A stretch of 64,000 nt of DNA, taken from contig JAKPQE010000165.1 in assembly GCA_029572955.1 (NCBI GenBank), positions 1-64,000 of the forward strand. The letters run 5' to 3'. A model generated the notes under the pieces. That model saw only the letters and a list, made by a program, of their open reading frames with translations. It was not told the DNA's origin and did no database searches. The stretch comes from Pseudomonadota bacterium. Lineage in GTDB: Bacteria; Pseudomonadota; Alphaproteobacteria; Rhizobiales; JAKPQE01. Position numbers and translations under genes: made by a program. Within the stretch, counting starts at the first letter, position 1, and each line of letters begins with the position of its first letter. Shown piece by piece: positions 32,482 to 38,312 of this stretch.

Positions 32482-32539
32482 GCGGTGCGGCCGATCGCGC
32501 TTCGACCCTTTCAATTCGCGGGGGGCACCCCTATATTCG

Positions 32540-32892
32540 GCCTGCCGGCGCAAGCCGGCTATGGCGATAAACGGTCGACGGAATAAGCCTATCGGACCCG
32601 GGGGCGGTACCCGGCGCCTCCACCAGAACCCGTGTCGGGCAAGGGCTGCGACGCGGGCTGTGGCGGGGGCGAAATAGGATCGACGAGGGTGTAAAGGTCG
32701 AACTTTCGCTCGGCATGGTTCCGCCGTTATCGGGCCGAACTTATAGTTGCCAACGACAACTATGCTCCGGTTGCTCAGGCCGCGTAATGCGGTTTGAAAT
32801 GCCGATCCAAAGTCCCGGCGGTTAGCACCGTCTGGCGGGGTTCGGGGGCACCTGGCAACAGAAGCCCCCACTTTCGTTCAGGGGACCGGACT
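32540..32892 (+). ncRNA. ssrA: Circularly permuted two-piece tmRNA
   Basis: tmRNA rescues stalled ribosomes and tags the nascent protein. The acceptor piece comes first and ends in CGCCTCCACCA (32615-32625), with T-stem CCGGG/CCCGG and a GCCGGC-gcaa-GCCGGC hairpin. After a spacer hairpin (about 32629-32660) the coding piece begins at GGGGGCG (32665), which pairs with CGCCTCC of the acceptor to rebuild the tRNA-like end. The tag is ANDNYAPVAQAA followed by TAA (resume codon GCC at 32749, stop ends 32787). Pseudoknot-like helices follow to about 32890. Outer ends are approximate. CTATAT at 32531-32536 is a possible -10 box. Confidence 0.95.
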
Positions 32893-35763: not shown

Positions 35764-36300
35764 TCAGTGTTCTCCCGGATGTGCGATGCCCTTGCCGGCA
35801 TCGTCGGATTCCTTGGCGCCATGATCGTCGAGGCCGAGAACGCGGATGGCGACCGCGATCAGCAGGACGGAGGCGGGCAGGATCAGAATGTTCCACTGGA
35901 ATTCGCCCCGCGCCTCGACGACGAGGCGGGCGAACATGACGATGAGGACGACGATGACGACCTCGGAGAGGATCTGCTTCAGCTGGCCGACGCCGCTGAC
36001 CTTCATCCAGTCTGGCAGGACGCGGGCATATTCGGCCGGCAGGCGAACGACGAAGCCGACGGCGATGCCGACGGCGAAGATGACGAGGACGATGCCGAAG
36101 AGGAAGGCGTCGACCGCTTCGAGGACGTAGACGACGACCTGGGTGCTGGCCCCCTCGGCATGGCCGAGAAGCGCGTGGGCGGCCTCCACGAGGTGGAGAC
36201 CGCCGACCCAGAACATCAGAAGAGACCCGAACACCGCACCGACGGAGCCGAGCAGCATCAGGAAGCGCAGGCCGAAGAGAAGTCGCATATAGGACTGCAT
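35764..36300 (-). CDS. YqhA/UPF0114-family membrane protein
   Basis: A 178-aa integral membrane protein with four hydrophobic segments: about residues 6-38, 54-82, 105-125 and 130-155. The layout and motifs resemble UPF0114/YqhA, whose function is unknown. It is sandwiched between ilvB and ilvH: GTG 36321, overlapping the ilvB stop by four bases (GTGA), is an alternative start and would make coupling even tighter. Position suggests co-expression with acetolactate synthase, not a shared function. Confidence 0.8.
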   Translation of the reverse strand: MQSYMRLLFGLRFLMLLGSVGAVFGSLLMFWVGGLHLVEAAHALLGHAEGASTQVVVYVLEAVDAFLFGIVLVIFAVGIAVGFVVRLPAEYARVLPDWMKVSGVGQLKQILSEVVIVVLIVMFARLVVEARGEFQWNILILPASVLLIAVAIRVLGLDDHGAKESDDAGKGIAHPGEH

Positions 36301-36317
36301 GACCGGCACCCGGGGCC

Positions 36318-38084
<1,767 letters not shown>

Positions 38085-38140
38085 CGCCCGTACACCTCAG
38101 ATTTCGACAGCCGGTCGTTCCTATCGCGAACACGGCCATT

Positions 38141-38165
38141 AAAAAAGGGGCCTTTCGGGCCCCTC
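38141..38165 (-). terminator. ilvB leader attenuator terminator
   Basis: On the minus strand GAGGGGCC-CGAAA-GGCCCCT is followed by six Ts, 57 bases before ilvB. It comes after the leader peptide stop, so it fits a ribosome-controlled transcription attenuator. Confidence 0.85.
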
Positions 38166-38194
38166 GGTCTGCGCACCATCCGTTCGCCGCGGCG

Positions 38195-38248
38195 TCAAGC
38201 TGCCGCGTCGATGGTGCGCCCCTCGATTACGAGAACGAATCCGCGCAT
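38195..38248 (-). CDS. ilvB leader peptide (branched-chain attenuator)
   Basis: A 17-residue ORF, MRGFVLVIEGRTIDAAA, with Val-Leu-Val-Ile at codons 5-8. AGAGGA lies about 11 bases before the ATG. The tract GCGCACCATC (38210-38219 region, in the ORF) is exactly complementary to GATGGTGCGC after the stop (38171-38180). It sits between a promoter and a terminator ahead of ilvB, so stalling at Val/Leu/Ile codons would set downstream folding. Too short for the ORF track. Confidence 0.8.
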   Translation of the reverse strand: MRGFVLVIEGRTIDAAA

Positions 38249-38283
38249 GTCCGCGTGGTTCCTCTTGGTTTTCGATGGCCGGG

Positions 38284-38312
38284 AGACTAGGCGCGGCGGG
38301 CGCCCGGGTCAA
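38284..38312 (-). promoter_or_regulatory. Promoter of the ilvB leader
   Basis: On the minus strand TTGACC (38307-38312), 17 bases and TAGTCT (38284-38289). The start of transcription would be near 38277, about 28 bases before the leader ATG. Confidence 0.65.

Follow-up and report, generated by a model that had tools for sequence, protein, structure and literature searches.

Leader region of the ilvB gene

The analyzed DNA, herein referred to as the window, is a single stretch of 64,000 nucleotides. Its minus strand carries the ilvB gene, encoding the large subunit of acetolactate synthase, the enzyme that opens the synthesis of valine, leucine, and isoleucine (Table 1). The product of this gene scored 1162 bits against the NCBIfam model NF006581 for the large subunit of acetolactate synthase 3 (cut-off 974 bits) and 793 bits against TIGR00118, and it contains three Pfam domains of TPP-dependent enzymes. 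ilvB is separated from ilvN by a gene for a UPF0114 (YqhA-like) membrane protein; of the related ilvB loci, only that of Bauldia (L022) likewise includes a UPF0114 relative. The window also contains an alphaproteobacterial tmRNA gene.

The region upstream of ilvB contains a promoter-like sequence, a Shine-Dalgarno-like sequence, a short leader ORF, an inverted repeat (P1), a hairpin with the leader stop codon in its loop (P2), and an intrinsic terminator. Codons 5-8 of the ORF, GTT CTC GTA ATC, encode Val-Leu-Val-Ile and are herein referred to as the control codons. P1 forms a 10-bp stem, and its first arm starts 8 nt downstream of the A of ATC, the last control codon. The terminator starts 5 nt after P1 and consists of a hairpin (38165-38145) and six Ts (38146-38141); 56 bases separate the T-run from the start of ilvB (38084), and a consensus scan detected no promoter-like site in this gap. 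When both strands of the 64 kb were scanned for a short ORF with four consecutive Ile/Leu/Val codons and an intrinsic terminator behind it, this was the one place found. The leader promoter matches the consensus at 8 of 12 bases and was not among the calls of a strict consensus scan.

Most of these parts had been named in an earlier note on this DNA. The TTGACC-17-TAGTCT promoter on the minus strand, the 17-codon ORF with Val-Leu-Val-Ile, and the repeated GAGGGGC motif (38224-38218 and 38165-38159, minus strand) are all present, and the pairing proposed between an arm inside the ORF and an arm after it corresponds to P1, which covaries in 83 leaders. The GC-rich hairpin and its six Ts were likewise found, 56 bases before ilvB rather than the 57 given in that note.

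Table 1. Features of the ilvB leader region, neighboring genes, and leaders of efflux genes
Feature	Position	Strand	Basis
Promoter: TTGACC (38312-38307), 17-nt spacer, TAGTCT (38289-38284)	38284..38312	-	sequence
Shine-Dalgarno-like AAGAGGA ahead of leader ORF	38260..38266	-	sequence
Leader ORF MRGFVLVIEGRTIDAAA, 17 codons, ATG to TGA	38195..38248	-	sequence
P1 arm 1 GCGCACCATC, within leader ORF	38210..38219	-	covarying stem
P2 hairpin CGCGGC/GCCGCG, leader stop codon in loop	38188..38207	-	present in 83/83 leaders
P1 arm 2 GATGGTGCGC	38171..38180	-	covarying stem
Intrinsic terminator GAGGGGCC-CGAAA-GGCCCCTT and six Ts	38141..38165	-	terminator scan call
Rfam RF02502 Atu_C8 (Rhizobiales sRNA) match	38131..38252	-	35 bits, E 1.1e-4, full length
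ilvB, acetolactate synthase large subunit	36318..38084	-	NCBIfam NF006581, TIGR00118, Pfam
UPF0114 (YqhA-like) membrane protein gene	35764..36321	-	
tmRNA, alphaproteobacterial	32505..32872	+	314 bits
Efflux-gene leader L190/L157	G186:C67:78402-78521	+	Atu_C8 match
Efflux-gene leader L178/L158	G126:C2:433741-433861	+	Atu_C8 match
Efflux-gene leader L179	G336:C74		Atu_C8 match

Distribution of the leader and its identity with RF02502

The leader was compared with those of 78 related ilvB loci, which remained of the 80 closest found after exclusion of two, one lacking upstream sequence. Conservation among ilvB orthologues had been proposed as a check in the earlier note. A short ORF with a run of branched-chain amino acid (BCAA) codons was found upstream of ilvB in 66 loci (64 by a strict rule plus L051 and L057 by inspection), with a terminator after it in nearly all of them. 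Among the related loci examined, the leader was not found at the ilvB loci of Hyphomicrobium. The family to which the window belongs includes one further genome, which carries the leader MRFGNLVICGRTIGEAG at its ilvB gene, with P1 arm 1 (GCGCACCATC) identical to that of the window and TTGACC-17-TAAATT at the corresponding promoter place. A promoter of the form TTGA-N16/18-xAxxxx was found in 76 of 84 leaders. In the window and in its relatives, the element is located directly upstream of ilvB/ilvI, and the BCAA leader peptide, P1, the stop-codon hairpin, and the terminator follow each other in fixed order.

The same region matches the Rfam family RF02502 (Atu_C8). This match is the single one in the genome, and its score falls under the gathering score of 50 bits. 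In total, RF02502 was detected at E < 0.001 in 99 of the 199 sampled genomes of the order, and only 27 of these exceed 50 bits, which indicates that the gathering threshold was set on Rhizobiaceae. Matches were found in 78 of 81 genomes from the same family as G186, a Rhizobium-like genome, and in none of 14 well-known control genomes. Matches of 118-119 bits directly precede ilvB/ilvI in Agrobacterium rubi and Sinorhizobium saheli; thus, the Rfam-curated sRNA family is the ilv leader. The leaders of this family share with the window the location, the BCAA leader peptide, the P1 stem, and the terminator, whereas by score the window reaches 35 bits against the cut-off of 50. A paper equating Atu_C8 with the ilv leader was not found in a search of papers other than the original Atu_C8 paper, and no priority is claimed.

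The window leader belongs to a kind already in the literature. A leader peptide upstream of alphaproteobacterial ilvB was described previously (Vitreschak et al., 2004, as cited in PMC1273637), and an "ilvIH cis regulatory" element is mentioned for S. meliloti in PMC2573895, which cites the same work. Attenuation of ilvBN is known in Caulobacter crescentus, where the leader has been analyzed by ribosome profiling (PMC4117421). As far as its description goes, this experimentally supported leader (ilvL; Tarleton et al., 1994) resembles that of the window in having Ile/Val codons and a terminator ahead of the same operon.

The start of the leader mRNA appears to differ between the window and other members of the order. 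In 56 leaders (for example, L024 and L063), a distance of 6-11 nt separates the end of the -10 hexamer from the leader ATG, and the mRNA carrying the leader ORF of these relatives is therefore expected to be leaderless. In A. rubi, the first base of the Atu_C8 match is the G of this ATG codon. Leaderless translation is known for trpL of S. meliloti (PMC10117765). In contrast to these 56 relatives, and to the ilv leaders of Rhizobiaceae, which look leaderless, the window has 35 nt between the -10 hexamer and the leader ATG, including the Shine-Dalgarno-like sequence, and this spacing would give its leader transcript a 5' UTR.

Additional copies of the leader were found in several genomes. Two ilvB paralogues are present in each of the genomes G024 and G260, every one with its own leader; the second paralogues, 63-68% identical to the IlvB of the window, have theirs at L155 (G024:C1049:7949-8069) and L174 (G260:C22:285281-285400). 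In the genomes G186, G126, and G336, the leader precedes a gene for an MFS efflux transporter of the Bcr/CflA family, with scores of 83-108 bits, above the gathering score. These leaders are MKIAMVLIVVIERMGGMA (L190/L157), MMIAIDMVVVGRRMGTAA (L178/L158), and MMMENGMIVVGARMGMAE (L179). Such pumps may be controlled by a branched-chain attenuator, or by one re-tuned to translation inhibitors. Weaker look-alikes (L186 in G025, L188 in G112, and L193 in G037), none of which matches RF02502, are located approximately 60-120 nt upstream of related MFS transporter genes. In these look-alikes, which include MSKNKTAVVVRDWRMGR and MMKQAAVVVDEWRMDR, a GCGCATGG-type stem runs straight into the terminator; in L188, the stem and the terminator appear to have bases in common.

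Geometry of P1 and search for an antiterminator

The P1 stem was analyzed in 83 leaders, comprising the window and 82 others. These leaders have 39 distinct pairs of P1 arms with a mean of 8.86 of 9 positions paired, and arms swapped between divergent leaders form 6.91 pairs even with the register chosen freely; as the leaders share descent, these figures do not represent independent trials. The P2 hairpin, searched for in the stop-codon region of each leader, was found in all of them. The leaders also use a scarce Val codon: GTA accounts for 37% of the Val codons in the leaders, 1.9% in the ilvB bodies, and none of the 154 in five genes of the window. According to the kinetic theory of attenuation, sensitivity depends on which of the synonymous regulatory codons are used (PMC1183508).

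The spacing of the elements is nearly constant. Measured from the first base of the final BCAA codon, P1 arm 1 starts 5-8 nt downstream in 81 of the 83 leaders, and, also in 81, the leader stop codon is located 19-26 nt past the start of this arm. In every one of the 83, the terminator follows P1 at a distance of 0-9 nt. The mean pair probability of P1 was 0.96 for a ribosome near the beginning of the BCAA run and dropped to 0.19 once its A site had reached the last codon of the run. At the leader stop codon, the ribosome sits on P1 arm 1, and hence P1 cannot form at this point. In leaders of the trp type, the regulatory codons are located inside region I and the antiterminator is formed by regions II and III (PMC1183508). 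The geometry of the ilv leader is reversed: the control codons are upstream of P1, stalling permits P1, and arrival at the stop codon removes it. In the folding model, P1 behaves like an antiterminator in its timing, but it has no bases in common with the terminator.

For detection of a classical antiterminator, the free energy lost when the terminator 5' arm is barred from pairing was calculated for each ribosome position, on a transcript ending just before the terminator 3' arm. This folding is done without pseudoknots, proteins, or kinetics. The E. coli leaders thrL, leuL, trpL, ilvL, hisL, and ivbL lose 7-15 kcal/mol with the ribosome at the control codons and 0-4 kcal/mol with the ribosome at the stop codon, and a rhizobial trpL loses 7-8 kcal/mol. 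No antiterminator of this strength was found by this calculation in the 83 ilv leaders, for which the median is 2.1 and the maximum 5.9 kcal/mol, none reaching 7; the value for the window is about 3 kcal/mol. With ribosome footprints of 8-16 nt, from 0 to 2 of 65 ilv leaders reached 6 kcal/mol. Partners of the terminator arms were also sought anywhere upstream in 51 leaders by RNAduplex, and the best ones lie at inconsistent positions.

Several other candidates and one other test were considered and rejected. As a test, the equilibrium probability that the terminator is formed, calculated for each ribosome position, is uninformative, since it is near 1 in the E. coli controls as well; for the window, it is 0.97-0.99 at every position. 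The GAGGGGC motif in the leader forms a bare duplex of -14.4 kcal/mol with the terminator 3' arm, but it is not conserved: TGCGGGC is found at this place in the nearest relative and GTGGGACGGC or similar sequences in Rhizobiaceae. Moreover, a ribosome that stalls at the end of the control codons would cover this motif. P1 could be extended into the terminator 5' arm by pairing of GGA/GGG in the leader with TCC/CCC, but this adds only 3-4 pairs and is not universal.

These results bear on two claims of the earlier note. The terminator 3' arm had been assigned two possible partners, one of which is the non-conserved GAGGGGC, and in the equilibrium calculation the terminator of the window stays formed at every ribosome position. 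The attenuator had been called complete, and folding with and without a ribosome block had been suggested as a check; no fold sequestering the terminator 5' arm emerged in the window or its 82 relatives from a calculation that reveals such a fold in every one of the six E. coli leaders and in a rhizobial trpL. The reading of the locus as leader-peptide control of ilvB is strongly supported, without the completeness and the second partner; it is right in kind and incomplete in mechanism.

Proposed mechanism and alternatives

Conservation, covariation, codon choice, and synteny strongly support a leader-peptide element controlling ilvB. By comparison of sequences, the ilvB/ilvI leader of Hyphomicrobiales would most probably (a probability of about 0.88 by our estimate) act by BCAA-responsive attenuation through a translated leader and an intrinsic terminator. 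The Val/Leu/Ile codons would report the supply of branched-chain aminoacyl-tRNAs and thus set the passage of RNA polymerase through the terminator into ilvB. With ample charged tRNA, the ribosome would run to the stop codon and cover P1 arm 1 and P2; P1 would be blocked, and the terminator would halt transcription, leaving a leader RNA of approximately 140 nt, annotated in Agrobacterium as the sRNA Atu_C8. With scarce charged tRNA, the ribosome would halt on the control codons, P1 would form, and RNA polymerase would read through. Since no classical II:III antiterminator was found, we infer that P1, ending 0-9 nt before the terminator, may itself hinder termination, either sterically at the RNA exit channel or via pausing. 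That P1 is the anti-termination element is suggested by geometry alone and is put forward tentatively.

In outline, the ilv leader would work like attenuators of the trp/ilv type. It shares with the six E. coli leaders an ORF with codons for the product and an intrinsic terminator before a biosynthetic gene. It differs from them in the modelled folding, lacking their strong stall-dependent fold on the terminator 5' arm, and in having its control codons ahead of P1 arm 1. As the II:III antiterminator was not found, the leader is not classed here as a classical three-helix attenuator. Nevertheless, a mechanism of the trp type, in which folding misses the II:III pairing (a pseudoknot, or a weak fold fixed kinetically) and P1 serves as the pause hairpin synchronising ribosome and polymerase, is a serious possibility, somewhat short of even odds. 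The leader ORF, the product codons, and the terminator are all of the classical form, the window has its weak alternative fold of about 3 kcal/mol, and P1, from where it lies, could cause a hairpin pause inside the terminator 5' arm. The success of the same calculation on all the E. coli leaders and a rhizobial trpL argues against this mechanism, as do the inconsistent positions of the 5'-arm partners across the ilv leaders and the location of the control codons upstream of P1 arm 1 rather than inside it. A bolder proposal, that the ilvB leaders of Hyphomicrobiales represent a second attenuator design in which P1, set between the control codons and the terminator and close to both, forms only during ribosome stalling and alone defeats the terminator, with no competing antiterminator, and in which the module is re-used before efflux pumps of the Bcr/CflA type, seems more doubtful still.

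We know of no trans function of the ilv leader. It is improbable that the terminator is constitutive and that the resulting RNA of approximately 120-140 nt, or its peptide, acts in trans, with read-through into ilvB being secondary. This explanation would account for the filing of Atu_C8 by Rfam as a small RNA, for the retention of P1 as a structure, and for the failure to find an antiterminator in the ilv leaders. It also has a precedent in the rnTrpL/peTrpL system of Sinorhizobium meliloti (PMC7298713; PMC10117765), which resembles the ilv leader as a biosynthetic attenuator of Rhizobiales with a leaderless sORF, its terminated leader being known as an sRNA; a rhizobial trpL leader differs in having a normal antiterminator by the sequestration test. 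The leader is, however, always found upstream of ilvB, except for the few efflux copies; the bias in control codons and the fixed spacing to P1 point to a sensor of ribosome position, and no promoter-like site was found in the 56-nt gap between the terminator and ilvB in the window. A trans role may exist in addition to cis control. The short ORF, the inverted repeat, and the terminator might also have come together by chance, in favor of which are the weak consensus match of the promoter and an Rfam score of the window under gathering; these points are outweighed by the single occurrence of such a place in 64 kb and by order-wide conservation with compensatory changes, and conservation refutes this explanation, leaving it a negligible chance.

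The leader presents a testable puzzle, a highly conserved leader-peptide attenuator seemingly without the antiterminator that the textbook mechanism requires. What has been curated as an "sRNA" family is, for the order as a whole, the leader of the ilv attenuator, which corrects the annotation in many genomes.
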